A DNA stretch of 64,000 nucleotides, taken from assembly GCF_009498295.1 (NCBI RefSeq), contig NZ_CP040813.1, positions 1,495,001 to 1,559,000 on the forward strand. Direction: 5' to 3'. This stretch comes from Oceanihabitans sp. IOP_32 (GTDB taxonomy: Bacteria; Bacteroidota; Bacteroidia; Flavobacteriales; Flavobacteriaceae). The notes under the pieces were generated by a model, which saw only the letters and a list, made by a program, of their open reading frames with translations, searched no databases and was not told the DNA's origin. This document shows, in pieces, positions 449 to 15,923 of the stretch (the stretch's first letter is position 1; the number at the start of each line of letters is the position of its first letter). The translations under genes and the position numbers were made by a program.

Positions 449-1849
449 TTAATATCCGCTTCCAATTTTATAATAGGTAAACCCGATCTTTTCCATAAGT
501 TTTTTATCTAAAACCCCTCTACCGTCGAATAAAAAGGCTGGTTTTTGCATGTTTTCGTAAATACGTGTCCAATCGTAGGTTTTAAATTCGTCCCACTCGG
601 TTAAAATAGCAATAGCATGGGCGTTTTTACAAGCCTCATAAGGATTGTTATGCACACTTAAAGCAGCTCTATTCGCTTCGGAAGTTCGGGTATTTAAATG
701 ATCGATATCCATGTACATTCTTTCGGAGGTCACTTTAGGATCGAACACCGCAATTTTTGCTTGCTCGCTTAACAAATTATCGGCCACATGAATGGCTGGC
801 GACATGCGGGTATCGTTCGTATCTTTTTTAAAGGCCCAACCTAAAAAGGCTATTTTCTTTCCCGAAACAGTATTGTACAGGGTAGTGACAATATGATCTG
901 AAAATCGATTTTTTTGATGGTCGTTCATAATAATAACCTGCTCCCAATAATTGGCTACCTCGTATAAATTATAACTTCTAGCAATATACACCAGATTTAA
1001 AATATCTTTCTGAAAGCAAGAACCGCCAAAGCCCACAGAGGCATTTAAAAATTTGGGGCCTATTCGAGAATCCATTCCAATAGCTTTAGACACCTCTGTA
1101 ATATCGGCACCTGTTTTTTCACAGATTTCCGACATGGCATTTATAGACGAAACCCGTTGGGCTAAAAAGGCATTGGCCGTTAGTTTTGATAGTTCTGATG
1201 ACCACAGATTGGTGGTTAAAATTTGTGCTTTAGGAATCCAATGGGTATAAATATCGACTAGGGCATTTACTGCGGATTCTCCAGTTGCAGTCGAGGTATC
1301 GCCACCAATTAATACCCGATCTGGATTTAATAAATCTTGAACAGCGGTACCCTCGGCCAAAAATTCTGGATTAGATAAAATTTGAAAATTAACACCATTA
1401 CCCACATGGTCTAAAATGTTTTTTATGGCCGATGCGGTGCGTACAGGTAGGGTAGATTTCTCGACCACTATTTTATCTTGTTTCGCAACTCTGGCGATTT
1501 GTCTGGCACATAGCTCGATGTATTTTAAATCGGCTGCCATGCCTTTCCCTTTACCGTAGGTTTTAGTAGGTGTATTTACCGAAATAAAAATCATCTCGGC
1601 CTCGTCTATAGCCTTGTCAATATCGGTAGAAAAGAACAGGTTCTTACCTCGGGTTGCTTTAACAATATCTGCTAAGCCAGGCTCGAATATAGGGAGCTCG
1701 TCGAAATTTTCGCTGTTCCAAGCGGCTATTCTATCGGCATTAATATCGACAACCGTAATTTTTATATGTGGGCACTTACTGGCGATTACCGCCATGGTGG
1801 GACCGCCTACGTAACCTGCGCCTATGCAACAGATGGTTTTAATTTTCAT
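449..1849 (-). CDS. ugd: UDP-glucose 6-dehydrogenase
   Basis: 466 residues. It oxidises UDP-glucose to UDP-glucuronate with two NAD+. The Rossmann loop [12 protein letters not shown] sits at the N-terminus, ISVNTPT and EKSTLPV follow, and the catalytic-cysteine motif [11 protein letters not shown] lies in the middle. The C-terminal UDP-binding domain carries [14 protein letters not shown]. The length and the GGPT loop resemble the longer animal-type UGDH subgroup that is common in Bacteroidota. It lies upstream of the UDP-glucuronate decarboxylase on the same strand, so the pair can supply GlcA and a xylose-type sugar. Its codons look more GC-rich than the O-antigen genes just upstream, and match rmlB and wzz better. 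Confidence 0.95.
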
Positions 1850-1872
1850 TTGATGAAATTATAATTTTAAGC

Positions 1873-3153
1873 TTAAAAGTTGTTTTCTAAATTATTTTCT
1901 TTTTTAAATACAAATATTGAAAACATAATCAAAAAGAATGAAAAAGAAATAATTCCCCATTGCCTATTTAGCATTGACTCCGTAACAAAACCAATCGAAA
2001 ACACATTAGTTATTAATATCATATATATATTATTAATTGCATACTTGTAAGAATAATAAAAAATTAAAAGCAATATAAATAAGCCTACAACACCAACATA
2101 TAGAAGAGTATCTAAATATTGATTATGTGCATTAAATTTATTGTAGAATCCTAAATAAAACTTATCCTTTTTAAACTGTTCTAATAATTTATTTTTACCG
2201 TCACCAACACCATAGCCAAACATTGGACTATTACTAATACATTTCGTAGCACTAATCCATTTATTTAATCGTATTGAAGTGCCTCCAAATTGGTCCTTAT
2301 AAAAATTCTCTTTGATTATAATGGATTCCTTTAGCCTAGTCCTTGTTACAGGATTTATGATACTTACGATTAATATTAAAGAAACTAAAGATGTTAAAAG
2401 TAGAATTTTTTTGTACGACCTGAGCTTCAAAAAAAAAATAATGAATATAAAATAATTTATAGCAAAGATTAATATTTGCCACCTTGAAGCTGTAAGTAAA
2501 ACTAGAAGGCCCAGGATTAGTAGAAAAAAATAATAAAATTTTATCTTCTTAATCTTTTTAAGATAAAATATAAAAATCAACCCTAAATTAGTAAACAAAC
2601 CTAGATAAATGGGCTGTATGTTTAAGGGTGATGTGAATTTATCATAAACAAAATACCAGTAATTTATATAATGATACTTTCCATTTTCTATCTCTCCTCC
2701 TCTTAACTTGTCAAATATATACCCCAAGGTATAACCTTCATGTATATTCTTGTAAATTGCAACAAAAATAAGGTAAAAAAAAATTAAACATAGATAGTAT
2801 ATATATGCTTTTACTATAAATTCTAAATTGATTTCTTCTTTGGAAATAAACAGTGGAATTACTGGTATTAATAAAAAAGATATAGAGCGTCCAATAACAC
2901 CAATTCCATTTGCCACATCCTGAGAATAAAACAATGACAATAGTAATACGAAAAAATATAAAACAAAAAAGAAAGAAACTTTATTAAAATTATTCTTGTT
3001 AATATTTTGTTTATGAATAAAGTGCCGGATAATAACAAAACTAAAAAGAACTCCCAATAAAATAGGATTTAATATTGGAGGAGGTATAACAAATGTTATT
3101 AATATTAAAGTTAAAAGAATATTTACAATACCAATATTTTTTATTTTAACCAT
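1873..3153 (-). CDS. O-antigen ligase/polymerase family membrane protein
   Basis: 426 residues, very hydrophobic, with about ten or more predicted membrane segments. A large loop carries a conserved arginine context (TASRWQ) and the segment FNAHNQYLDTLLYVGVVGL. The HNQYL-type motif is characteristic of the Wzy_C/WaaL superfamily, which polymerises or ligates lipid-linked O-antigen or capsule repeats in the inner membrane. A second superfamily member lies at 4230-5423, so one may be the polymerase and the other the ligase. Sequence alone cannot tell which. The ATG overlaps the stop of the upstream glycosyltransferase by 8 bp, so the two are co-transcribed. Strongly AT-rich. Confidence 0.8.
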   Translation of the reverse strand: MVKIKNIGIVNILLTLILITFVIPPPILNPILLGVLFSFVIIRHFIHKQNINKNNFNKVSFFFVLYFFVLLLSLFYSQDVANGIGVIGRSISFLLIPVIPLFISKEEINLEFIVKAYIYYLCLIFFYLIFVAIYKNIHEGYTLGYIFDKLRGGEIENGKYHYINYWYFVYDKFTSPLNIQPIYLGLFTNLGLIFIFYLKKIKKIKFYYFFLLILGLLVLLTASRWQILIFAINYFIFIIFFLKLRSYKKILLLTSLVSLILIVSIINPVTRTRLKESIIIKENFYKDQFGGTSIRLNKWISATKCISNSPMFGYGVGDGKNKLLEQFKKDKFYLGFYNKFNAHNQYLDTLLYVGVVGLFILLLIFYYSYKYAINNIYMILITNVFSIGFVTESMLNRQWGIISFSFFLIMFSIFVFKKENNLENNF

Positions 3154-4264
3154 TATTTCCTTTTAATTTTGAAAACAAATAATTCTCATATTGAGAATTT
3201 ATTAAGTTCCAATTGAAGTTTAACTTTATTTCTTTAATATTATTATTTTTAAAAGCTTCTTTATTTTTTTCAAAAAAAGAATTATCATCTATTATATTAC
3301 TGATATTTTTAGGCTCTTTAAAATATAATGCATTTAATTTCAAAATGCTTTTATTGAAAATATTATCATTTGCTACTATCAATGCTCCTGATGCCATTGC
3401 TTCAAGTAAGGATGGGTTGGTACCACCTACAGAATGCCCATGAAAATAAAACTTTGAATAATATCTTAAATTATTTAAATGATTCATATTGTAGACTCCC
3501 CCCACAAACTTAATGTTTTCTTGATTTTGATATTTATTTTTCAGATGAGAACCGAATTTACTTGTATCATGCTTACCTATAACCAGAATAATTTCTTTTT
3601 GTTTAGCCAAACTAACTCCATCCAAAATGGTTTCAATATTGTTTTCTGGCTCTAACCTAGCAATTAACATATTATACTTATACGGTTCAACATTATACTG
3701 TTCAACAACTGACTTATCTGGCATGTTAAAAACATCAGCTCCATATGCAATATACTTTGATTCTTTATTATATACTTTTTTTATATAATTTTGGATACCT
3801 ATAGAATCAGACACAAGATAATCACTATTCTTTACAGCTAGGCTTTCCGCTATCTTTAAAAATTTTCTAACTGGTTTTTTATACTTAGATCTTTTCCATT
3901 CCAAGCCATCCATATTAGTTATTATTATTGAATTCTTTGGTAGTAATTTACTCCATATCGAACTACTAGTATAACCTAATTGAAGTATAATATCAAAATG
4001 TTCTTTCCTACAATGGCGGATACAATTTAAATCATAAATAAACTGACCTGCCGTTCCAATTTTATCCTCAGGGTCATTTTTATGAATAATTTTCACACCA
4101 TTCCACTCTTTTAATTGATAAGGATGTGTGTGCGAATTAAAAACACTTATATCATGACCTTTATTAGCCATATAGAGTGAAAAATATTCAGCAAATTGTT
4201 CAAACCCACCATGGTTGTTTGGTATTCCTCTAGTTCCTAAGATTGCTAGCTTCATTTTTTTCAT
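3146..4264 (-). CDS. DUF1972-type glycosyltransferase (rhamnosyltransferase-like, GT4 fold)
   Basis: 372 residues. The N-terminus LAILGTRGIPNNHGGFEQ is the hallmark of DUF1972 glycosyltransferases, which are often annotated as rhamnosyltransferases. The C-terminal half has the GT-B features ARLEPENN and GGTNPSLLEAMASG, the E-x7-E-like nucleotide-sugar site. Given the rml genes in this locus, dTDP-rhamnose is a plausible donor, but this is inference. The start at 4264 overlaps the upstream wzy-like gene by 35 bp. An in-frame ATG three codons later (4255) gives a slightly shorter protein and cannot be excluded. Confidence 0.85.
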   Translation of the reverse strand: MKKMKLAILGTRGIPNNHGGFEQFAEYFSLYMANKGHDISVFNSHTHPYQLKEWNGVKIIHKNDPEDKIGTAGQFIYDLNCIRHCRKEHFDIILQLGYTSSSIWSKLLPKNSIIITNMDGLEWKRSKYKKPVRKFLKIAESLAVKNSDYLVSDSIGIQNYIKKVYNKESKYIAYGADVFNMPDKSVVEQYNVEPYKYNMLIARLEPENNIETILDGVSLAKQKEIILVIGKHDTSKFGSHLKNKYQNQENIKFVGGVYNMNHLNNLRYYSKFYFHGHSVGGTNPSLLEAMASGALIVANDNIFNKSILKLNALYFKEPKNISNIIDDNSFFEKNKEAFKNNNIKEIKLNFNWNLINSQYENYLFSKLKGNNG

Positions 4265-5423
4265 ATATCATTGAGTAAAATAAGTATAATAAAAGAATTG
4301 TAAAATAATAATAAAAACCATTAAAAAATGCAGATAACCAAAAACTAGAAAATGTTAGAGATATAAAAACACTATTTTTTATAATATCTTTATGTTTCCT
4401 ATAAATTTTTACAAACAAACTTAGGTAGAATATTAATGGTAAAATACCGTATGAATAAAAAATGCTTAAAAAATCGTTATGAAACCAAATAGCATAAGAG
4501 ACGTTTTTTATATTAGCCTCTACTGAAGTGTTAAAACCCCTACCAAAAATAAAATCAATTAAGCTAAATGTTTTTATTTCGGTCCACCAAGAAGACCATA
4601 TTATAACTCTAGATAACCTTTCATAATTAGAGATTACAGTTTTAACAATTGTTAGATACTGGTATATGATAGTATCACTAAATAAAAATAAAATCTCATC
4701 AATGTAAACAATTAATAATACTGCTAAAGATACTAGAACTAACAAATACTTCAAATATTTAGCTTTAAAAAAATACAAGAACAAGCCTAATAACATTACT
4801 ACAACAGGTGTTCTAGAGCCTGTTAAAAATATTATAACTATTAGTGGGAGTATTATTATAAAATAAGTGAGTTTATTTGCCCCAAAAGACCTAAATCTGT
4901 CAATTAAGTATAATACAATAAATGTAAAAAAATATGATGCTATATGAGCTTTTCTAAAAAATCCTTGTCTATACGATCTATTATACTCAATATCATCCGT
5001 TTTAACTCCCAAAGTATTACCCCAAAGATTCTGATCAAAGCCAACAAACGTTGCCAAAAATAAAATAATTGAAGTAATTATGAAAAAAGTAATTATTTTT
5101 TTATTAGGTTTAAAATAATTTATATCTGAAAACAGATAAAATGAACCAAAAAAAGACATTATAAATAAATAATCAGATAATGATTCTTTATAAAAACCAC
5201 TCCTAATTGTGTTAAATATAAAGGATGAAGAAAAAGCTAAAACTATGATTAAAAAAGACTGATATTTCTTTAAAGAAAAAAACCCAGGTATAATTAATAG
5301 AAAAAAAAATAACATTAGAGATAACACAAATAGTGGAATATCATAAAAATAATTAAGTACACTATCTAATGCGAAAACTAAAATATAAAGCAAAAAGATT
5401 ATTGATCTTTTATCTAAAATCAT
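4230..5423 (-). CDS. Wzy-like O-antigen/capsule polymerase, integral membrane
   Basis: 397 residues with about ten hydrophobic segments. Conserved features are TGSRTPVVVMLLG and, in the periplasmic loop, IWFHNDFLSIFYSYG, which matches the HN-x-x-L region of the O-antigen polymerase/ligase superfamily. It probably polymerises undecaprenyl-linked repeat units. The start overlaps the stop of the upstream GT2 gene by 14 bp, and the 3' end overlaps the next glycosyltransferase, indicating tight translational coupling. Assignment as polymerase rather than ligase is inferred from its place among the repeat-unit genes. Confidence 0.75.
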   Translation of the reverse strand: MILDKRSIIFLLYILVFALDSVLNYFYDIPLFVLSLMLFFFLLIIPGFFSLKKYQSFLIIVLAFSSSFIFNTIRSGFYKESLSDYLFIMSFFGSFYLFSDINYFKPNKKIITFFIITSIILFLATFVGFDQNLWGNTLGVKTDDIEYNRSYRQGFFRKAHIASYFFTFIVLYLIDRFRSFGANKLTYFIIILPLIVIIFLTGSRTPVVVMLLGLFLYFFKAKYLKYLLVLVSLAVLLIVYIDEILFLFSDTIIYQYLTIVKTVISNYERLSRVIIWSSWWTEIKTFSLIDFIFGRGFNTSVEANIKNVSYAIWFHNDFLSIFYSYGILPLIFYLSLFVKIYRKHKDIIKNSVFISLTFSSFWLSAFFNGFYYYFTILLLYLFYSMIYEKNEASNLRN

Positions 5424-6282
5424 TTAAAAATTTTTTAATTACCTTGTCTGGTCTAAAAAGACCTGAAATACCTAAAAATAATACTCTTTTAAAATTATTT
5501 TTTTCAAAGTAATATTTTCTATAATATTTCAAACTTAAATAGTTTATAACAACTAAAAAAAAACTAGTTTTAGTTTTAAATATCTTATCTCTTAAAGCGT
5601 ATGTTTTCTTTATCGTACTAAACGGCAAAGCATTAGAAACACTATTTTGATGAATTCTGACAAAGGTGAGCTTATCTGGAAAACTTTGCGCTTTTACACC
5701 ATCTTTAATCATTCTAGAAAAAATATCATAGTCTTCAGCTGGAACATTACTTTGACAGTATAAATACTTTTTAAAAAATAAACTTTTACCCATAACTGTT
5801 CCGTGCAGTAACCCATGTTCACCTTTAATATATCTTTTATATATTGATTCATATTTTTGTGGAAAATTTGAAGACCCAACTACGCTTTCAAGTTTTTCAT
5901 TAAAATAAGTTACATTACTCCCAGTAATATCAATATCACTATTTTTCTCTAAAAAAGTGTATTGTTTTGCTATTCTTGTTTTTTCCAGTATGTCATCTGG
6001 ATCAACTCTTAAAATATACTTACCCGTAGTTTCTTTAATTCCAACATTAAGGGCATTTGCAAAACCTACATTACTTTTTAATGCTATAACTTTTAGATAT
6101 GGTAAATTATACCTTGAGAGTATCTTTAATGATTCATCGGTTGAACCATCATCAATGATTATTAATTCTTTTGGTAATGCACTTGAGTTTATAACACTAG
6201 ATATAAATTCATCTAAATATTTCCCATTATTATAATTAGCGCATACTATGGATACGTCACAAATTTCCTTTTTACTACACAT
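5410..6282 (-). CDS. Family 2 glycosyltransferase
   Basis: 290 residues with a GT-A fold. VSIVCANYNNGKYLDEF and IIDDGSTDESL form the nucleotide-binding part. LRVDPDD is the DXD-type metal site, here RVDPDD. GLLHGTVM and a PAEDYDIFSRM segment are the acceptor-side and general-base regions seen in capsule GT2 enzymes. It should transfer one sugar to the growing lipid-linked repeat on the cytoplasmic face. Donor and linkage cannot be read from sequence. It overlaps the sialyltransferase-like gene by 8 bp upstream and wzy by 14 bp downstream. Confidence 0.9.
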   Translation of the reverse strand: MCSKKEICDVSIVCANYNNGKYLDEFISSVINSSALPKELIIIDDGSTDESLKILSRYNLPYLKVIALKSNVGFANALNVGIKETTGKYILRVDPDDILEKTRIAKQYTFLEKNSDIDITGSNVTYFNEKLESVVGSSNFPQKYESIYKRYIKGEHGLLHGTVMGKSLFFKKYLYCQSNVPAEDYDIFSRMIKDGVKAQSFPDKLTFVRIHQNSVSNALPFSTIKKTYALRDKIFKTKTSFFLVVINYLSLKYYRKYYFEKNNFKRVLFLGISGLFRPDKVIKKFLNDFR

Positions 6283-7293: not shown

Positions 7294-8722
7294 TTAAATA
7301 TTTATTAAAATCTTTTTGATGTTGAGTATCTTAAACTTGATGTTTAATAGAATTAAGGTGACCAAATAATAGATTACGGAAAATATTACTACAAACCACT
7401 TTAATTCAAAATACTTATTTAAAATATAAAACGGTGTGTAAACAATTATTGATACTAAAACAATTATCAAGTAGTTTGTTATAGGAAAAAAGTTTATGAT
7501 ATTTAAATTTAGTCTTCTTTTTATAAAAAAAAAAGAGACAGAAATAGTACTTAAACTTGATATAACAGTAGCCCAAGAAGCCCCTTTAACCCCATAAATA
7601 GGTATTAATATAATATTTAAACCTAACCCAATAACTGCACTCAATAATATTACAAAATTTGATTTCTTCTCAAGACCAATACTTCCCATAAAAACTGAAA
7701 AAGCCATAACACTTAGAGAGTATCTTAATATGTATATTTTAAACACCTCTCCGGAAACTTGAAAATCATCTCCATATAAAAACTTAATTAAAGGAACTGC
7801 TTCAAAAAAACTATAAACTAAAATAGGGATTAAAAAAAAGGAGCTTTTAAGAATTGCTTTTTTTACCTCTATAGCCAATTCCCTTATTTTATCGTTAAAA
7901 TATAACTCAGTAAAAACAGGAATTAAGCTAATAAATAAAGAGCTAGTAATTATGTTAACGAAAGGGAGGTTAATAGCTCCATTTTGGTAGTAAACAAAAT
8001 CTGTTGGGTTTAAAATTATTGCTATTAAATACTTATCAATGTATAAACTAAACGCACCTAGTATTACACCTATAGAAATAGTTGATATATAAATAAATTC
8101 CTCTTTATTAAATGCCTTTAAACTAAAATTTAATTCTTTCCTATTTATTATAAAAGTATTAATTATTAATCTAAAAAGTTCAATACAAAAAAGTTGAACA
8201 AGAACTATTTCTACTTTAAAATTGTTTAATAAATAATCATAGAAAACAAGCTAATAAAGCTATAAAAGTAAAAGTATATAGTAATAGATATTTATTTAGT
8301 TTATTTTTTAAGTAATGATAATTAGGGAAAATTGTATTAACCAACTTAATAAAATAATAGAGTAGAATGATATATATATAGTTTATGAATGCTTCATTTT
8401 GAAAGCTTACCCCAATAACTGATTTGAATAAAAATATTAGAGAACAAAGAAATAAAGCAACTAAAATCATGATAAAAGAAAACTTCCCAAACAAAGATTG
8501 TTTTTGTTTCAAATCATCATATTTACCATGAAAAAAATTTAACGAAAGCGGTAAACCCGATACAAGCGTTACCAAAATTGAAGATACAAACACTATTTGC
8601 AGCAATTCACCTAATTCATTTTTATCAACAATAAAACGGGATAAAAAAACAGAAATTAATAGAACTTCGAAAGTTCTCATCATGTTTGAGATAGAAAAAA
8701 GAATTTTATTGTTTATACGCAT
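7294..8722 (-). pseudogene. Wzx-type polysaccharide flippase split by a single frameshift
   Basis: Two consecutive open frames join into one MATE-fold polysaccharide flippase of about 475 residues. The first, 8722 to 8237, encodes 161 residues (start RINNKILFSIS) and stops at a TGA. The second is open from 8250 to 7294 in another frame and continues with VFYDYLLNNFKVEIVL and later GAINLPFVNI and FLYGDDFQVSG. The total of 1429 bp is one base more than a multiple of three, so one extra base between 8250 and 8240, beside a run of four T (8243-8246), explains the break. It is the only flippase candidate seen in the locus. Either the strain is affected, a sequencing error is present, or slippage restores the frame. 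Confidence 0.75.
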
Positions 8723-8773: not shown

Positions 8774-9325
8774 TTAATCTAACATAGAGAAAACAATATC
8801 TTCTATATTTATAGAGACAAAATTCGGATCATAACTTCCATTAATCGGTTGTGTAGTAATTAGTTTATCTTTTTCATTGTAAATAATATACTTATTTGGT
8901 TTAAATAATTGCTCGAATTTACCATCATTAAAATAAAACTCTTTATTGTTGTATGTAATCTTAAGATTATTTAGAGTTATGGGTTCTTGTGAGTAATTAA
9001 CTCCAAAATCTAATCGTAAACCATTAGGTATTATTCCTTCTGGAATCGAAAAAACAAGCTTTTGGCTGTTTTCAGATCCTTTAACAATAACTTCTAAAAC
9101 TCTTTTTGAAGAATATTCTTTACTATTAAAATCTTTATAAAACAAGTGAAATTTATCATCTTTCTTTACAACTGCATCTAGTATAACTTCAAAATATTGA
9201 TTCCCTTCAATTTCATTGTTAACTACTATAGTGTCGTCTTCTGTTTCTAATATTTGTGTTTTTTTCTTTTCAGATTTACAGGCAAAAAAAGCAACAAAAC
9301 CGATAAGTAAAACAAGTTGTTTCAT
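8774..9325 (-). CDS. Hypothetical lipoprotein
   Basis: 183 residues, family not recognised. The N-terminus is a lipoprotein signal: KQLVLLIGFVAFF followed by the lipobox Cys in FFACKSEKKK. The body is beta-rich (alternating hydrophobic pattern, with LRLDFGVNY and ITYNNKEFYF) and may be a carbohydrate-binding or sandwich-like domain, but this is a guess. It lies between the flippase and the HAD phosphatase on the same strand, so it may serve surface-glycan assembly. The 223 bp upstream (9326-9548) contain no gene and could hold a promoter. Confidence 0.65.
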   Translation of the reverse strand: MKQLVLLIGFVAFFACKSEKKKTQILETEDDTIVVNNEIEGNQYFEVILDAVVKKDDKFHLFYKDFNSKEYSSKRVLEVIVKGSENSQKLVFSIPEGIIPNGLRLDFGVNYSQEPITLNNLKITYNNKEFYFNDGKFEQLFKPNKYIIYNEKDKLITTQPINGSYDPNFVSINIEDIVFSMLD

Positions 9326-9548: not shown

Positions 9549-10181
9549 TTATAAGCTCTTAATTGTTTGAAAGCATTCTATATAGCCTTGATTTAATTTT
9601 GTTAACGCCATATTATTATACCCATAAAAAACTATATTATTTACATATGCTGCCTCATAGTCGTTTATGGAATCTCCTATTAAGCAAGTACTGTTTTTAT
9701 CATAGGCATGTTGTTCTAATAAGGTTTTAACCAATTGGTTTTTTGTCGTAGGCGACCCATGGATAGAAATAAAATATTTATCGATACCTAGTTCTTTACA
9801 TAAAAACCTAAGTTCTTCTTGATCTGAACCTGATACAATATGAAAACTATACTTTTGATAATTCTCTTTAATAAAAGTTACAGCATCGGTTATTAAATTA
9901 TCAGGGCTTGTTAATTCTTTTTTCATTAAAACAGAAAATGCTTCAGCATATTGTAGAACCCTTTCTTCTGTAATGGTTTTCCCTAAAATATTTTCATAGA
10001 AATACCTAATTTTTACATATCTTGAAAGTCCTCCGTTAGCTGCATGATAGTCTAAAAGTTTAGAAACTTGTTCTTCTTTAAAATCTTTAAAAATCTCTTT
10101 AAACCCCCAATCTCTTACAGCCATAGAGTCAAGAATTACACCATCGAAATCCCACAGTATTGTTTTTGTTTCTTGCTTCAT
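9549..10181 (-). CDS. HAD-family phosphatase
   Basis: 210 residues from the ATG at 10181. An upstream extension is open but lies inside the preceding gene. The ATG overlaps that gene's TGA as ATGA, which decides the start. Motif I is WDFDGVILDS (nucleophile Asp11, acid Asp13), motif II is the serine in HIVSGS, and motif IV is LIGDSINDYEAA. The cap insertion after motif I marks a phosphoglycolate-phosphatase-like (HAD_2) member. Its coupling to a CMP-sugar-acid cytidylyltransferase suggests that it removes a phosphate from a ulosonic-acid phosphate before CMP activation, as NeuNAc-9-P or KDO-8-P phosphatases do. The substrate is inferred. Confidence 0.85.
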   Translation of the reverse strand: MKQETKTILWDFDGVILDSMAVRDWGFKEIFKDFKEEQVSKLLDYHAANGGLSRYVKIRYFYENILGKTITEERVLQYAEAFSVLMKKELTSPDNLITDAVTFIKENYQKYSFHIVSGSDQEELRFLCKELGIDKYFISIHGSPTTKNQLVKTLLEQHAYDKNSTCLIGDSINDYEAAYVNNIVFYGYNNMALTKLNQGYIECFQTIKSL

Positions 10182-10849
10182 TTTTGTTTTATTTGTTTGT
10201 ATATCATTTCTGCTAATTGAAAATCTTCTGGCCAATCAACATCTACAGACTCATAACCTTCAGTTACATATAAATAAGGTTTAACACCTATTCTGTCTTG
10301 ATATTTTAAATAATTTTCTCTTGAATTAATAAAAAAGCCACTATTTATCTCAAAAAGTTCCGGTAATGTTTGGGTGCGAGGCCATTTTTCAATGGTTCTG
10401 TCATAATTAATTGGTTTTTCTTTATCCCACAAAAAGGTTTGTATTTTGTTAACAGTCATTAAACTATCAAAACCATCATTATTAAAATACTGTTCCATTG
10501 CCTTTTCAAATGTAGAAATGGATATAAATGGAGACGTGACATGTGTCCATAAAATATGGTCATCTTTTATAACTCTAGGTATATAATTAATAACCTCGTC
10601 TGTACTTGTCTCTGATGTTGCCAAGTGTTCAGGACGCACATCAATTACAATCTTATCGTTATTAAATGATTTAGCAACGTTAATTACCTCTTGGTCATTA
10701 GTAGATACCATTATGGTATTAATACCTGAGACTTGTAAAAGCGTATTTAGCTTTACTTTTAGCAAGCCTCCTTTTACCCCTGCAAAATCTTTTGTATTTT
10801 TTTTGGGTATACGTTGACTCCCCAATCTACATGGAAGAAATATTGTCAT
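10178..10849 (-). CDS. CMP-sugar-acid (acylneuraminate-type) cytidylyltransferase
   Basis: 223 residues. The N-terminus FLPCRLGSQRIPKKN is the P-x-R-x-G-S-x-R-x-P-x-K-N signature of NeuA/KdsB-type enzymes, which transfer CMP from CTP to a 2-keto-3-deoxy sugar acid. VSTNDQEVI and LWTHVTSPF follow as in the NeuA group, with YESVDVDWPEDF near the end. The product would be a CMP-ulosonic acid donor. The aldolase gene ends 8 bp upstream and the HAD phosphatase overlaps by 4 bp, so the three genes form one translation unit. NeuB and NeuC are absent from the window, so the actual substrate is unknown. Confidence 0.85.
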   Translation of the reverse strand: MTIFLPCRLGSQRIPKKNTKDFAGVKGGLLKVKLNTLLQVSGINTIMVSTNDQEVINVAKSFNNDKIVIDVRPEHLATSETSTDEVINYIPRVIKDDHILWTHVTSPFISISTFEKAMEQYFNNDGFDSLMTVNKIQTFLWDKEKPINYDRTIEKWPRTQTLPELFEINSGFFINSRENYLKYQDRIGVKPYLYVTEGYESVDVDWPEDFQLAEMIYKQIKQK

Positions 10850-10857
10850 TTTAAAAA

Positions 10858-12408
10858 TTATAAAAAACTATAAATAGATGAAACCTCTATATTTTTATAT
10901 TTTGTTGGCGTAAAACTCATTACAGAAACTCCAGAAATATTAACAGCATCGTCAATTACCTCTTGATTTTCATGAGCAATAACAAACTGATTTTGATTAA
11001 TGTTTACATCATAACCATCAAAACCAACTAAATAAATATCTTTAGCTCCTAAGTCTATAGCCGCTTGTATAGCTAAAGCCATTGGTGAATCTGAGGTAGC
11101 ACTTGTAAATGTAATGGCCTCTAATTCTTTCGCTAATTTTTCAATAGCATTAGGTATTGTGGTGCCCATTGGCCTTGGGAATGGTGGGTAGATACAAACT
11201 TGGTCTATTTTCGAGAAATCGCCTATTTGTTTTAATAACTTATCACTTTCAAAACCTACTAAACCGTAGTATTGATCACATTTTATATCTAAATATTCTA
11301 AGACATTACGTGTTCCTGCATGAACTAAACACGCATCAGATTTTTCGTTTTCGAAAAACTTTTGGATACCAATTTTATGTGATCTTGCAGATGGACCTCC
11401 TCCAAGGATTATTGCTTTTTTATATTTCTCGGATTTTTTTAATACTGGTAATTTCAAATTATCCTTAACATCTTCTTTCTGGTTGTTAAGTGCATTTAAA
11501 ATACTTCCTAGCGGGTAGCGATTCATCCCTATCCATTCCATTACTTGTTTTTGTGGTAATGACTTTGCTCCTGAAAACATATATGGTAAACTTGTACCCC
11601 AATGATAAAACTTACGAAGCTCTTCAAAGTCACTAACTACCTTACTTAGTGCTCCGTATTTGACAGGTAAATTATTCGTATTTTCTAAATAGGTAAGTAA
11701 TAATTCTGTTTTTAAATTCCCTGCGCCTCTTCCCATACCAGTCACTGTAGCATCAACAATATCACACCCAGCATCTATAGCTGTTATTGTGTTAATTAAT
11801 GCCATTTGTAAATTATCATGGCCGTGAAATCCTATAGATACATTTATCTTAGATTTAATTAAAGCTACTGTTTCTTTAACATCTTCTGGCATAACCCCTC
11901 CATAGGAATCTACCATATAAAAATAGTCAATAACACCATCAACCCCTGTAAGATAATTTAAGAATGAAGAATCTTCTTTCCACTTAGACATGTACATAAC
12001 ATTAAAAGCCACTTTAAATCCAGCTAGTTTTACAGCTCTTGCCAACTCAATGGCTCTCTTCATATTTTGAGGATCAATAGCTATACGAACCATTGCAACA
12101 TAACCTTTACAAGGAGCTAATAATCCTTCCTCTATATGGGATGCACGTATGTCCTTTTCATTTAAAATGATAGTTAAATGCTTTGATGGCATTAAAGTCT
12201 TGAGTCTTTTTAATACATATTCTGGACAGTAAAAATATTGACCTAAATAGCCTTTCATGGGTATACTTCTATATCCAACTTCTACATAATCAATAGGTAG
12301 TGACTCCATCGCTTCTGCATAGCTTTCTATAAGTGAGTCATCAAAATCCCAGTTAGTATAGTATCCTCCGTCTCGTAATGTGCAATCTAAAAGGTTAATC
12401 TTATTCAA
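10858..12408 (-). CDS. HMGL-type pyruvate aldolase fused to a DUF115/Maf-like domain
   Basis: 516 residues. Residues 1-270 form an HMGL/DmpG-like TIM barrel: LLDCTLRDGGY (metal Asp and catalytic Arg), GFHGHDN (HxH metal ligands at 195-197) and GMGRGAGN (224-231), all as in 4-hydroxy-2-oxovalerate aldolase. That family makes or breaks a C-C bond with pyruvate. Residues from about 330 form a second domain with ILGGGPSA and SPMALAIQAAIDLGAK...LVGFDGYD, resembling DUF115, the domain of Maf flagellin nonulosonate transferases. The reaction is probably condensation of pyruvate with an aldehyde sugar to give a ulosonic acid. This is inferred from the neighbouring CMP-transferase and phosphatase, not shown. 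Confidence 0.75.
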   Translation of the reverse strand: MNKINLLDCTLRDGGYYTNWDFDDSLIESYAEAMESLPIDYVEVGYRSIPMKGYLGQYFYCPEYVLKRLKTLMPSKHLTIILNEKDIRASHIEEGLLAPCKGYVAMVRIAIDPQNMKRAIELARAVKLAGFKVAFNVMYMSKWKEDSSFLNYLTGVDGVIDYFYMVDSYGGVMPEDVKETVALIKSKINVSIGFHGHDNLQMALINTITAIDAGCDIVDATVTGMGRGAGNLKTELLLTYLENTNNLPVKYGALSKVVSDFEELRKFYHWGTSLPYMFSGAKSLPQKQVMEWIGMNRYPLGSILNALNNQKEDVKDNLKLPVLKKSEKYKKAIILGGGPSARSHKIGIQKFFENEKSDACLVHAGTRNVLEYLDIKCDQYYGLVGFESDKLLKQIGDFSKIDQVCIYPPFPRPMGTTIPNAIEKLAKELEAITFTSATSDSPMALAIQAAIDLGAKDIYLVGFDGYDVNINQNQFVIAHENQEVIDDAVNISGVSVMSFTPTKYKNIEVSSIYSFL

Positions 12409-12518: not shown

Positions 12519-13370
12519 TTATAATCGTAAGGTTTTATTTAAACTCTCAAACCAATGAGGAATTTCTAAAATTAGATTGTTTTTAATTTTAGATTTATCT
12601 AAAACACTAAAAACAGGTCGCTTAGCAGGTGTTGGATAGGCTTCTGTTTTAATTGCATTCACTTTAACAGCATTATTATGAATGTCAAAAATTGCTACTG
12701 CAAAATCATACCAATTCGCAACCCCTTCATTGCTGTAATGAAATAATCCGAAATTCTTATTATCAGAATTAATTATCTGTAATATAACTTCTGCTAAATC
12801 ACCTGCATAAGTCGGTGTCCCTATTTGATCAGAAACCACCGAAATTTCATCTCTAGTTTCGGCCAACCGCAACATGGTTTTCATAAAATTGTTACCATAC
12901 TCAGAATATAACCAGGATGTACGAATAATAAAGCACTCTTTTAACAAATTTTGAACTTCAATTTCTCCTTGTAATTTAGAAGCTCCATAAACACTAATAG
13001 GGTTGGGTTCATCGGTTTCAAGATAGGGTGTGCTTTTCTTTCCATCAAACACAAAATCGGTTGAGATATGTATTAAAACAGTGCCATGTTCTTTACAGGC
13101 AATAGCCAAATTTTTTGGACCTTCTGCATTTACTTTAAAAGCTAATTCCTCTTCTTCTTCAGCCTTATCCACTGCTGTATAAGCCGCGCAATTAACACAA
13201 TAATGTATTGGTTCTTGCTCCTTAAAAAACTGGTTCACAGACTGCTCATCACAGATATCTAATTCTTTATGATCGGTAAAAACAAAACTTAAATGACTAT
13301 TTTTTTTTTGTATATCTTTTATACAATGCCCTAATTGTCCGTTAGCACCTGTTACCAAAACCTTTATCAT
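12519..13370 (-). CDS. rmlD: dTDP-4-dehydrorhamnose reductase
   Basis: 283 residues, last step of dTDP-L-rhamnose synthesis (NADPH-dependent reduction of the 4-keto group). It has the loop VTGANGQLGHCI at the N-terminus, the CAAYTAVDKAE segment, the ISTDFVFDG motif, and Y-x3-K as in VYGASKLQGE. The start ATG overlaps the rmlC stop by 4 bp. A 110-bp gap without a gene separates its stop from the aldolase gene downstream. Confidence 0.96.
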   Translation of the reverse strand: MIKVLVTGANGQLGHCIKDIQKKNSHLSFVFTDHKELDICDEQSVNQFFKEQEPIHYCVNCAAYTAVDKAEEEEELAFKVNAEGPKNLAIACKEHGTVLIHISTDFVFDGKKSTPYLETDEPNPISVYGASKLQGEIEVQNLLKECFIIRTSWLYSEYGNNFMKTMLRLAETRDEISVVSDQIGTPTYAGDLAEVILQIINSDNKNFGLFHYSNEGVANWYDFAVAIFDIHNNAVKVNAIKTEAYPTPAKRPVFSVLDKSKIKNNLILEIPHWFESLNKTLRL

Positions 13371-13912
13371 AGTATAGCGTTTTCAAATTTGGGTAGTACT
13401 AAATCTTTTTCTGAGACAATAAAATCTTCCTCATTTAACTGCCAATCTATATCTAGATACTTATCATTAAAAATGATACCTGCTTCTGCTTCCTTATTAT
13501 AAAAATTATCGCATTTATATGAAAAAAGAGCTGTATCACTTAAAACAACAAAACCGTGTGCAAAGCCTCTTGGTACAAACAATTGCTTTTTATTTTGTTC
13601 TGATAATTCTACCGCTACATGTTGTCCAAATGTTTGAGATTCTTTTCTAAGATCTACGGCTACGTCTAAAACCCTACCATTTAAAACACGAACTAATTTA
13701 GCTTGAGCGTGCGCTCCTGTTTGATAATGCAACCCTCTTAAAACACCCTTTGATGAAAAAGACTCATTATCTTGAACAAAATTAACATTAGCCCCTAACA
13801 ATTTATTAAACACTTTTTGATTATAGCTTTCAAAAAAATATCCACGTTCATCAGCATAAACAGTTGGTTCTAATATATAACAATCTTGTAGTTTTGTTTC
13901 TTTTACAATCAT
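13367..13912 (-). CDS. rmlC: dTDP-4-dehydrorhamnose 3,5-epimerase
   Basis: 181 residues, a cupin-fold epimerase acting on dTDP-4-keto-6-deoxyglucose. Visible signatures are FFESYNQ, FVQDNESFSSKGVLRGLHYQ (catalytic His in LRGLHYQ), KLVRVLNGRVLDVAVDLR and VPRGFAHGFVVLS. The length is normal for the family. It starts directly after the rmlA stop (no gap) and overlaps rmlD by 4 bp. Confidence 0.97.
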   Translation of the reverse strand: MIVKETKLQDCYILEPTVYADERGYFFESYNQKVFNKLLGANVNFVQDNESFSSKGVLRGLHYQTGAHAQAKLVRVLNGRVLDVAVDLRKESQTFGQHVAVELSEQNKKQLFVPRGFAHGFVVLSDTALFSYKCDNFYNKEAEAGIIFNDKYLDIDWQLNEEDFIVSEKDLVLPKFENAIL

Positions 13913-14779
13913 TTAGTCTTGATTTATTAGGCTTAGTAAATGTTTTCCATAACCACTTTTAAGCAATGGTTTAGCAAGATTCCTTAGCTCTTCTTTTGAT
14001 ATAAAACCACTTCTGTAAGCGGCCTCTTCAATAGCCCCAATTTTCAATCCTTGCCGCTCTTCAATAACTTCAACAAATTGGGATGCCTGCATCAAAGAAT
14101 TAAAAGTTCCTGTATCTAACCAAGCTGTTCCTTTATCTAAAATACTAACTCTTAATCTACCTCGTTTTAAATATTCTTTATTAACATCGGTTATCTCTAA
14201 TTCACCTCTATGACTTGGTTTTATATTTTTCGCTATTTTAACCACTTCATTATCATAAAAATAAATACCTGGAACGGCATAGTTTGATTTTGGTTTTTCT
14301 GGTTTTTCTTCAATAGAAAGTACATTTCCATCTTTATCAAAATTAACAACTCCATAACGTTCCGGATCATTGACATGATAAGCATAAACAATACCCCCTT
14401 GAGGGTCATTATTAGCCTTTAACAACTCAGCCAAACCAGTTCCATAAAATATATTATCACCTAAAATTAAGGCTACTTTATCGTCTCCAATAAAATCTTC
14501 ACCAATAATGAAAGCCTCTGCTAAACCATTTGGAGCATCTTGTACAGCATATTCAAACCTACAACCCAAATGATTACCATCTCCTAATAATTGTTTAAAA
14601 AGTGGTAAATGCTCTGGCGTAGATATAATAAGTATCTCACTAATACCAGCATGCATTAAAGTGGATAGCGGATAATATATCATGGGTTTATCATAAATAG
14701 GCATCAGCTGCTTACTTAAAACTTTTGTCAATGGATGGAGTCTAGTCCCAGAGCCACCTGCTAAAATAATACCTTTCAT
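13913..14779 (-). CDS. rmlA: Glucose-1-phosphate thymidylyltransferase
   Basis: 288 residues. It makes dTDP-glucose from dTTP and glucose-1-phosphate, the first committed step toward dTDP-L-rhamnose. It has the N-terminal nucleotidyltransferase signature [16 protein letters not shown], then [27 protein letters not shown] and [16 protein letters not shown]. The start codon follows the second copy of the leader element shared with the decarboxylase gene at the window start. Codon use is more AT-rich than in rmlB upstream, so the boundary of the variable block probably falls between them. Confidence 0.97.
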
Positions 14780-14870
14780 GTGTTTTTTTTTATTGTTTTT
14801 CTATCGGTCACAAGCGACATCCATTTCATCATTTCCTTGAGTATTAATTTAGTTATGGATGTTTGATAAG
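14778..14870 (-). repeat. Hairpin-forming leader element, copy 2
   Basis: It fills the whole gap between the rmlB stop and the rmlA start. It aligns with 240-335 in the same orientation, with matching blocks at the start codon, TATCGGTCACA, ACATCCAT, ATCATTTCC and TTTAGTTATGG. ACATCCAT and ATGGATGT can pair in this copy too, but the stem is shorter than in copy 1. The two copies lie 14.5 kb apart as direct repeats around the variable sugar genes. Confidence 0.7.
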
Positions 14871-15923
14871 CTATTTATACTGCTTTTTATAATAATCTTG
14901 ATAGGCCCCAGTGGTGACATTATTAAGCCAGTCCTTATTATTTAAGTACCAATCGATGGTCTTGTCTAAACCTTCTTCGAAAGTTACCGTAGGCGTCCAT
15001 CCCAGCTCTTTTTTTATTTTTGAGGCATCGATAGCATATCTTAAATCGTGTCCCGGACGGTCTTTAACGTAGGTGATTAATTGTGCCGATGTGCCTTCTT
15101 TATTACCTAATTTATCGTCCATTTGTTTACAAAGCAAGCTAACTAAATCGATGTTTTTCCATTCGTTAAAACCACCAATATTATAGGTTTCTCCTAAAAC
15201 ACCTTTATGAAAAACCACATCTATGGCTTTGGCATGATCTTCTACAAACAACCAATCTCGAGTATAATTACCATCGCCATAAACGGGTAACTCTTTTTTA
15301 TTTAAAATATTATTTATAAACAAGGGGATTAGTTTTTCTGGAAATTGATAAGCCCCATAATTATTAGAACAGTTTGAAATAATATACGGCAAGCCATAGG
15401 TTTCGCCGTAGGCTCTAACAAAATGATCGGCACTCGCTTTCGATGCAGAGTAGGGTGAATTGGGATCGTAAGCTGTGGTTTCGGTAAATAAGCCCGTTTC
15501 TCCTAAAGTTCCGTAAACTTCGTCTGTACTAATGTGGTAAAATAATTTATTTTCAAAATTAGAATGATAACAAGCCTTAAAAGCATTAAGCAATACCATG
15601 GTCCCTATAACATTGGTTTTTACAAAGGCTAGGGGATCTTCTATAGAGCGATCGACATGCGACTCGGCCGCGAGATGAATTACCTTATCAAATTTATGGG
15701 TTTGGAAGAGTTCGTTTATAAAGTCCTCGTTGGTAATATCGCCTTTTATAAAGGTATAATTGGGTTGGTCTTGAACATCGATAAGGTTCTCCAAATTACC
15801 CGCATAAGTCAAGGCATCCAAATTATAAATATGATACTCTGGATAGGTATTAACAAATAACCTCACTACATGAGAACCGATAAATCCAGCCCCACCCGTT
15901 ATTAAAACATTTTGTTTATTCAT
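14871..15923 (-). CDS. rmlB: dTDP-glucose 4,6-dehydratase
   Basis: 350 residues, an extended SDR that converts dTDP-glucose to dTDP-4-keto-6-deoxyglucose. The NAD loop is ITGGAGFIGSHVVR. HLAAESHVDRSI, HISTDEVYG and the catalytic YSASKASAD follow, with the substrate segment YGAYQFPEKLIP. It begins 15 bp after the Wzz-like gene ends. It has the TCG-rich codon style of ugd and wzz, unlike rmlA, rmlC and rmlD. Confidence 0.97.
   Translation of the reverse strand: MNKQNVLITGGAGFIGSHVVRLFVNTYPEYHIYNLDALTYAGNLENLIDVQDQPNYTFIKGDITNEDFINELFQTHKFDKVIHLAAESHVDRSIEDPLAFVKTNVIGTMVLLNAFKACYHSNFENKLFYHISTDEVYGTLGETGLFTETTAYDPNSPYSASKASADHFVRAYGETYGLPYIISNCSNNYGAYQFPEKLIPLFINNILNKKELPVYGDGNYTRDWLFVEDHAKAIDVVFHKGVLGETYNIGGFNEWKNIDLVSLLCKQMDDKLGNKEGTSAQLITYVKDRPGHDLRYAIDASKIKKELGWTPTVTFEEGLDKTIDWYLNNKDWLNNVTTGAYQDYYKKQYK

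Follow-up and report, generated by a model that had tools for sequence, protein, structure and literature searches.

The Gene Trio and Its Setting

The window analysed here, a stretch of 64,000 nucleotides from the genome of Oceanihabitans sp. IOP_32 (contig NZ_CP040813.1, positions 1,495,001 to 1,559,000), carries three tightly coupled genes that encode a two-domain aldolase, a cytidylyltransferase and a HAD phosphatase (Table 1). Only 8 bp (10857-10850) separate the aldolase gene from the cytidylyltransferase gene, which is in turn joined to the HAD gene by an ATGA overlap. A first-pass annotation, made from the sequence alone, had described this trio as a possible NeuB-independent route to an ulosonic acid activated by cytidine monophosphate (CMP). 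Its coordinates, gap and overlap all proved correct when the open reading frames (ORFs) were checked, and HMMER searches bore out its three gene identities, namely an HMGL aldolase, a PF02348 cytidylyltransferase and an intact HAD phosphatase; a second aldolase domain and a PF07388 gene further downstream had escaped it. The trio belongs to a surface-polysaccharide cluster: rhamnose-type genes precede it, and flippase, polymerase-like and glycosyltransferase genes follow it.

Table 1. The trio and the features around it in the window
Feature	Position	Strand	Basis or remark
Two-domain aldolase, 516 amino acids, TTG start	12408-10858	-	HMGL/4-hydroxy-2-oxovalerate-aldolase-like barrel plus predicted Maf/GT42-fold domain
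CMP-ulosonate cytidylyltransferase, NeuA/PseF-like, from the clade linked to the aldolase, 223 amino acids	10849-10178	-	PF02348, E 1e-16
HAD phosphatase (HAD_2), 210 amino acids, ATG at 10181	10181-9549	-	PF13419, E 2e-14
Polysialyltransferase-like glycosyltransferase, candidate CMP-sugar user	7291-6275	-	PF07388, E 5e-11
RmlD-, RmlC-, RmlA- and RmlB-like genes for deoxythymidine diphosphate (dTDP)-L-rhamnose, same surface-glycan cluster	12519-15923	-	ORFs; presumed names
Wzx-type flippase gene, split	7294-8722	-	One frameshift near 8240-8250
Rest of the surface-polysaccharide cluster	449-6282	-	Uridine diphosphate (UDP)-sugar dehydrogenase, two Wzy-like membrane proteins, two glycosyltransferases

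Aldolase Barrel and HAD Phosphatase

PF00682 (HMGL-like) matches residues 4-245 of the aldolase (E 3e-24, HMMER), and the barrel, a TIM barrel plus a helical tail, spans residues 4-312 of a full-length predicted model with a mean predicted local distance difference test score (pLDDT) of 93.8. PDB 3dxi is matched by phmmer (E 7e-110) and is the structure closest to the modelled barrel (Z 44.4, 53% identity, 299 residues); next come oxovalerate aldolases, with Z about 31 across some 310 residues, and after them homocitrate and isopropylmalate synthases. R12, D13, H195 and H197 are invariant in an alignment of 60 sequences and align to oxovalerate aldolases of known structure, and we take these four residues to be the metal and enolate set. 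The first-pass annotation had pointed to three motifs as compatible with a metal-dependent condensation of pyruvate: DCTLRDGG and GMGRGAGN are present and invariant or nearly so among the 60 relatives, and HGHDN is present with its two His and its Asn invariant, its Asp being variable. Oxovalerate aldolases make 4-hydroxy-2-oxo acids, which have the same chemical pattern as 3-deoxy-2-ulosonic acids. Phage matches to the aldolase cover 41-45% of it at 25.6-26.7% identity and do not extend over the fusion.

The HAD protein retains D11, D13, S117, K147, D170 and D174, each kept in at least 52 of 53 relatives, which represent the DxD, Ser, Lys and GDxxxD motif set of HAD phosphatases. It is not KdsC-like, scoring 16.7 bits with TIGR01670 against a cut-off of 106.95.

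Conservation of the Module across Genomes

Sixty-nine loci were compared, the window and 68 others found by aldolase similarity search alone. Sixty-five of them encode a cytidylyltransferase relative at most 2.5 kb downstream of the aldolase and on its strand (40 of NeuA type and 25 of KdsB type). A HAD gene of the same family is found no further than 3.5 kb downstream in 53 loci, and five others have one at another place. As the loci were found through the aldolase, these frequencies show that the trio (hereafter, with its relatives, the module) is not a chance arrangement. In the neighbourhood comparison proposed by the first-pass annotation, the order of aldolase and cytidylyltransferase is kept in several phyla. 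The hosts, whose phyla were read from organism names, are mostly Bacteroidota and also include Balneolota, Campylobacterota, Bacillota and Alphaproteobacteria. The four loci without a downstream cytidylyltransferase are L062, in which a KdsB type is inverted, L048, which is cut by a contig end, L065, which ends 1.5 kb past the aldolase, and L070, which holds a single-domain Streptomyces protein. Two Leisingera plasmids carry an aldolase gene, a gene annotated as KdsB and a HAD gene in the same order, with an aldolase only 25-27% identical. In an even sample of the class (295 genomes, at most five candidates per genome being scored), the full two-domain aldolase was found in only three, so the module is rare and scattered.

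Beyond the trio, the commonest neighbours are nucleotide-sugar, rhamnose and glycosyltransferase-like genes, as judged from clusters whose identities are mostly our assumption. No dedicated aldehyde-making gene linked to the trio was seen among these commonest clusters. A PfkB-family sugar kinase gene follows the cytidylyltransferase gene in two loci without a HAD gene, L047 (12219-13265, Pfam match) and L067 (9414-10580, clustering only). The aldolase of L067, from a contig labelled Christensenellaceae, groups with Bacteroidales ones on the aldolase tree, which may reflect a recent transfer or a mis-binned contig. L029 (12357-13520, Pfam) and five other loci (cluster 33) have a gene for a BNR-repeat sialidase-like protein within the module or close to it.

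Kinship with oxovalerate aldolases might suggest that the enzyme serves an unrelated catabolic reaction, and TIGR03217, the equivalog family for those enzymes, does score it at 90.9 bits. That value is far under the cut-off of 286 bits; furthermore, a cytidylyltransferase gene accompanies the aldolase almost throughout, and no acetaldehyde dehydrogenase was seen among the window ORFs at 1-30000, which were read by eye. We regard a catabolic role as extremely improbable, and a catabolic oxovalerate aldolase was rejected on the sub-cut-off score and the surface-glycan context.

NeuB and KdsA

The genome consists of a single contig of 3,475,698 bases and is 100% complete. The first-pass annotation had seen no NeuB-type synthase in the window and had named such a gene elsewhere in the genome, feeding this cytidylyltransferase, as the finding that would overturn its reading. 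PF03102 has no match in the window and none in the complete genome, and the same search, run as a control, was positive in 9 of 14 genomes. Therefore, no NeuB can feed the cytidylyltransferase of the module here. Two PF02348 proteins are encoded, the one in the module and another, elsewhere, that falls among canonical KdsB. The check for a KdsA-type synthase, also suggested at the first pass, returned two PF00793 proteins, both away from the module, which from their lengths we take to be KdsA and 3-deoxy-D-arabino-heptulosonate 7-phosphate (DAHP) synthase. Ordinary activation of 3-deoxy-D-manno-octulosonic acid (Kdo) by the module was rejected for this genome, as its KdsB- and KdsA-type genes lie elsewhere.

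The survey was extended to the genomes of 49 of the 68 relative loci, of which 14 have no NeuB-family match and 35 have one (34 above the cut-off). In the 15 genomes with a KdsB-type module that were searched for both families, 12 NeuB genes above the cut-off were found, together with 12 further PF02348 genes beyond those of the module and the canonical KdsB; each of the 12 pairs lies on one contig with its members at most 4 kb apart, and the counts agree in every one of the 15 genomes. Since each NeuB gene has a PF02348 partner of its own, the module cytidylyltransferase is left without a NeuB. At the level of loci, nine of the 69 have a NeuB gene, and every one of the nine has an additional cytidylyltransferase-like ORF (in L050, a 100-residue fragment). 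Feeding by a distant NeuB was ruled out on these two grounds, the genome-wide absence and the pairing of NeuB with PF02348 genes.

Cytidylyltransferases of the Module

The window cytidylyltransferase scores 61.5 bits with PF02348 (cut-off 22.6, HMMER); the PseF model TIGR03584 matches it at E 3e-21, but with 76 bits against a cut-off of 205.7. In a tree of 107 PF02348 proteins (a quick search with some long branches, from which ORFs under 190 residues, including the L050 fragment, were dropped and in which over-long ORFs were shortened), it falls on the NeuA branch. All 40 aldolase-linked NeuA types form one clade (Shimodaira-Hasegawa-like approximate likelihood ratio test, SH-aLRT, 87, not starred), and 25 of the 26 linked KdsB types form another (SH-aLRT 99), including that of L062, inverted beside its aldolase; L021 has both kinds. 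Both clades stand apart from the 16 canonical KdsB proteins and from the NeuB-linked genes. On a tree of the 67 full-length aldolases, the type of partner changes 16 times by parsimony, at least nine of these on starred branches, counts only somewhat below those obtained when the labels were shuffled 500 times (the mean was then 20.6, and 10 and 14 of the shuffles were as low). These swaps suggest that either kind of cytidylyltransferase serves one aldolase family. NeuA, PseF and KdsB all have 3-deoxy-2-ulosonic acids as their known substrates, so that an acid of this type is the simplest candidate for the common product.

Numbered by the KdsB ORF of the window's own genome, and with L028 not in the comparison, 25 linked KdsB types differ from the 16 canonical ones by H181Q, G183C and R170K (25/25 each), A158L (24/25), and L132G and H78C (23/25 each), and they keep P13, R15, K24, Q101, D103, D234 and D238, among others. 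Kdo binding has been assigned to the C-terminal domain of KdsB (PMC3149649), and five of the six switches fall in that domain. On the NeuA branch, the residue before TSP is Gln in 14 of 16 NeuB-linked enzymes and His in 32 of 37 aldolase-linked ones, H103 of the window included; this comparison omits the long-branch sequences of L026, L058 and L066, and its NeuB-linked set consists of 12 of the 13 such rows together with four second NeuA genes of loci that carry NeuB. Gln104 of the Neisseria meningitidis enzyme governs the Michaelis constant (Km) for N-acetylneuraminic acid (Neu5Ac) (PMC2901514). Read from the motif rather than from a structural alignment, H103 likely occupies the position of Gln104 and contacts the sugar. 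The changed residues point away from Kdo and from an ordinary sialic acid as the activated sugar.

A different product, CMP-Kdo or a simple isomer of Kdo, would be made in parallel to KdsA with pyruvate in place of phosphoenolpyruvate (PEP) and would go into capsule or O-antigen instead of lipid A. KdsB-like enzymes do occupy the slot in 25 of 69 loci, and Maf and Lst enzymes accept CMP-Kdo, as stated in PMC11339370 and PMC8092323. Nevertheless, the linked KdsB types depart from the canonical ones at nearly fixed positions, most of them in the C-terminal domain, and a canonical KdsB is additionally present in 15 of 16 genomes with a KdsB-type module (the exception is G037), so that we consider this product unlikely.

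Second Domain of the Aldolase

Approximately residues 330-516 of the aldolase form a second domain. PF01973 scores it at 25.6 bits, below the cut-off of 34.6 (HMMER), and no significant match to PDB sequences was obtained by profile or single-sequence search. Modelled alone (pLDDT 93.5), the domain resembles Maf 5mu5 best (Z 15.7, root-mean-square deviation 3.6, 197 of 212 residues aligned), followed by MptE (Z 12.1), SteA (Z 11.8) and CstII (Z 10.4). By this prediction it is of the Maf/GT42 CMP-sugar-transferase fold, although a shared fold shows no function: MptE, a diphosphokinase, and SteA match too, so that the activity cannot be read from the fold. Comparing its profile with those of neighbouring transferases gave weak results, with 82.9% probability over 46 columns for the MptE-like family, 36% for the GT29-like family, 20% for cluster 38 and 0.1% for the polysialyltransferase. 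PMC11339370 describes Maf enzymes as transferring nonulosonic acids, some of them accepting CMP-Kdo, and their central domain as resembling Cst-II. The second domain may transfer, bind or regulate.

One could go further and suppose that this domain itself uses the CMP-ulosonic acid of the operon, which would put condensation and transfer on one chain. Besides the fold, an alignment of D464 and Y466 with the GxDxY stretch of Cst-I (not significant, E 0.22) would fit, as would the fact that 67 of 69 aldolases are full-length, the exceptions being the contig-end fragment of L048 and the single-domain protein of L070. Single-domain relatives, in Streptomyces (L070), on a Mesorhizobium plasmid (L161) and in Priestia, have no cytidylyltransferase gene in the stretch seen. 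On the other side, GT42 enzymes use a catalytic His, whereas the alignment of 60 sequences has no invariant His in the domain; the fold is shared with MptE and SteA, as noted above; and separate transferase candidates exist in more than half of the loci (see the next section). We therefore hold a synthase-transferase fusion to be possible but rather unlikely.

Candidate Transferases

The gene at 7291-6275 scores 43.0 bits with PF07388 (cut-off 23.3) and is the only PF07388 match in the genome. Across 50 module genomes, the family occurs at 20 places (19 above the cut-off): 10 belong to module loci that lack NeuB, 8 have a NeuB at most 10 kb away and 2 are near neither; four of those eight (L033, L049, L050 and L052) also lie inside the module locus by coordinates. 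The 295-genome class sample, not chosen by the module, has 9 places above the cut-off, of which 3 are beside the module, 4 within about 7 kb of a NeuB and 2 on contigs other than that of the genome's NeuB. One of the three beside the module is that of the window's own genome; the other two are in G285, which has a single NeuB-family match, a partial one (38.9 bits). GT29-like genes occur in 6 of 50 module genomes, always inside the module locus, and MptE-like genes are also among the candidates there. GT52 (PF07922) was rejected as a general partner, being found in 1 of 50 genomes, beside a NeuB; a GT52 gene follows the module in L069 (Pfam) and in L059 (clustering). Altogether, 37 of 69 loci have a transferase candidate, or 31 without cluster 38 (6 loci), a GT42/Maf-like candidate by weak profile comparison only, with no Pfam match; above-cut-off PF07388 matches add L033 and L052.

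Proposed Pathway

We consider it probable that the trio is a self-contained pyruvate-aldolase route, independent of NeuB and KdsA, to a CMP-activated 3-deoxy-2-ulosonic acid for a surface glycan. The NeuB-independent route on a pyruvate-type aldolase that was first proposed from the sequence has withstood the genomic tests, namely the absence of NeuB, the pairing of NeuB with other PF02348 genes, the separate clades of the cytidylyltransferases and the sialyltransferase-family neighbours. From gene order, modelled folds, residues, clades, neighbourhoods and NeuB absence, we infer the following reactions, step order and product. The HMGL-type barrel would make pyruvate enolate on a divalent metal with Arg12, Asp13, His195 and His197, and the enolate would add to a sugar aldehyde to give a 4-hydroxy-2-oxo acid, that is, a 3-deoxy-2-ulosonic acid. 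The HAD enzyme would then remove phosphate, which suggests that the aldehyde is probably a phosphorylated aldose; as no precursor gene was seen travelling with the module, the aldehyde would come from central metabolism. The cytidylyltransferase would couple the free sugar acid to CMP, and a sialyltransferase-family enzyme, here the PF07388 protein, would add the sugar to the surface glycan; the aldolase's own Maf/GT42-fold domain might transfer or bind the CMP-sugar. The product probably differs from Kdo and from ordinary sialic, legionaminic and pseudaminic acids.

Several observations weigh against this pathway. The His that follows LRDG in oxovalerate aldolases, the catalytic base of DmpG-type enzymes, is an invariant Tyr16 here, and the aldehyde half-reaction must therefore differ or may not occur. 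NeuB is present in most of the module genomes surveyed (35/49). In 16 loci, the 3.5 kb downstream contain no HAD gene of this family: L048 is cut by a contig end, five (L010, L060, L061, L065 and L070) have a relative elsewhere and ten show none, two of these ten being the loci with a PfkB-type kinase; the pathway leaves the ten unexplained. Equally unexplained, six loci (L006, L026, L027, L036, L054 and L056) have an HpcH/HpaI pyruvate-type aldolase between the aldolase and the cytidylyltransferase, a second aldolase in the same operon, so that the HMGL domain could do something else; this gene was recognised by clustering in seven loci, that of L049 lying six genes away, and by Pfam in L026, where it was checked. 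The single-domain aldolases of L070 and L161 have a HAD gene nearby, and such an aldolase-HAD pair can accordingly serve something else. As for the transferases, about 30 of 69 loci lack a candidate of the families sought, and four of the six GT29-bearing loci also hold NeuB. In addition, none of 12 below-cut-off PF07388 places in the 295 genomes is beside the module; two are within 10 kb of a NeuB, one is 12 kb from a NeuB, and the rest are on other contigs or in genomes without NeuB.

Some of these points would suit a cassette for salvage and activation, in which the ulosonic acid is scavenged or supplied by a housekeeping lyase and the HMGL protein degrades or remodels the sugar: the replaced DmpG base, the HpcH aldolases in 6 of 69 loci and the existence of scavenging strains with NeuA and a sialyltransferase and no NeuB. 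Such a cassette would have no need of a phosphatase, and the aldolase is the constant member of the module whereas the cytidylyltransferase is the one swapped; moreover, the fixed changes in the cytidylyltransferases speak against ordinary Neu5Ac or Kdo. Salvage seems to us distinctly improbable. A phosphonate pathway, with an HMGL-like synthase and a cytidylyltransferase, was also considered; the available part of PMC6697681 contained no HMGL or NeuA match, and the genome was not searched for PEP mutase.

CMP-ulosonic acids such as Kdo and sialic, legionaminic and pseudaminic acids are key surface sugars, and NeuB commonly serves as the marker for the sialic-acid-like ones. If the pyruvate-aldolase route is real, surveys based on NeuB miss producers, such as this genome and the 14 of 49 other module genomes without a NeuB match, and the sialyltransferase-like genes in genomes without NeuB would be explained. 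The structural-genomics orphan 3dxi would gain a function, and a pyruvate-dependent aldolase with CMP-synthetases of its own would be known for glycan synthesis. A bolder version, whose chances we place slightly below even, is that the module is a third route to CMP-3-deoxy-2-ulosonates besides those of NeuB and KdsA. In it, condensation and perhaps also transfer would be carried out by a pyruvate aldolase that bears a fused domain of the CMP-sugar-transferase fold, the ulosonic acid would be new to bacterial surfaces, two CMP-synthetase lineages would have been re-tooled, and the module would move between phyla in capsule and O-antigen clusters. No paper on the module or on BVU_2661, the protein of 3dxi, was found among openly licensed PMC papers, and one may be in print elsewhere; the available portions of a review of marine glycan structures (PMC3210612) report pseudaminic acid and Kdo-type sugars and nothing tied to the module.

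Surrounding Surface-Polysaccharide Cluster

The Rml names in Table 1 are our assumption from the translated sequences, as are those of the UDP-sugar dehydrogenase and the Wzy-like proteins; relatives of the rhamnose genes make up neighbour clusters 8, 7, 5 and 3 in the clustering of locus neighbours. Glycosyltransferase families are matched by the ORFs at 3146-4264 and 5410-6282 (HMMER). The two halves of the flippase match residues 13-173 and 175-486 of a single 489-residue relative in L012, and the frameshift may be a real mutation or a sequencing error. A small protein of 183 residues with no assigned function is encoded at 8774-9325 (minus strand), and its relatives (cluster 52) immediately precede the aldolase in L009, L012 and L019.

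Comparison with Known Systems

The nearest relative of known structure, PDB 3dxi ("putative aldolase", the N-terminal domain of BVU_2661 from Bacteroides vulgatus), belongs to the same family at 53% barrel identity; it offers a structure only, solved for the N-terminal domain alone. DmpG, BphI and AmnG (TIGR03217; PDB 1nvm, 4jn6 and 8ih7) share the TIM barrel with its Arg, Asp, His and His metal-enolate set, whereas the module aldolase has Tyr16 for the base His, a fused second domain and a surface-glycan context. Maf flagellin glycosyltransferases and GT42 enzymes (PF01973, CstII) share the predicted fold of that second domain, which differs in being below the PF01973 cut-off and fused to an aldolase.

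Among complete pathways, that of Kdo (KdsA, KdsC and KdsB) has the same succession of condensation, dephosphorylation and CMP transfer as that proposed here, and in 25 of 69 loci the cytidylyltransferase is a KdsB relative; unlike the Kdo pathway, the module has an aldolase in place of KdsA, a HAD enzyme that is not KdsC-like and linked KdsB types that form a separate clade with changed residues. NeuB-type nonulosonic pathways differ in having NeuB, in place of which the module has an HMGL-type aldolase and a HAD_2 phosphatase, and the module cytidylyltransferase lies in a clade of its own with His for Gln at the presumed Gln104 position. What the module has in common with them is activation by a PF02348 CMP-transferring enzyme and the presence nearby of PF07388, GT29, GT52 or MptE/Maf-like transferase genes.

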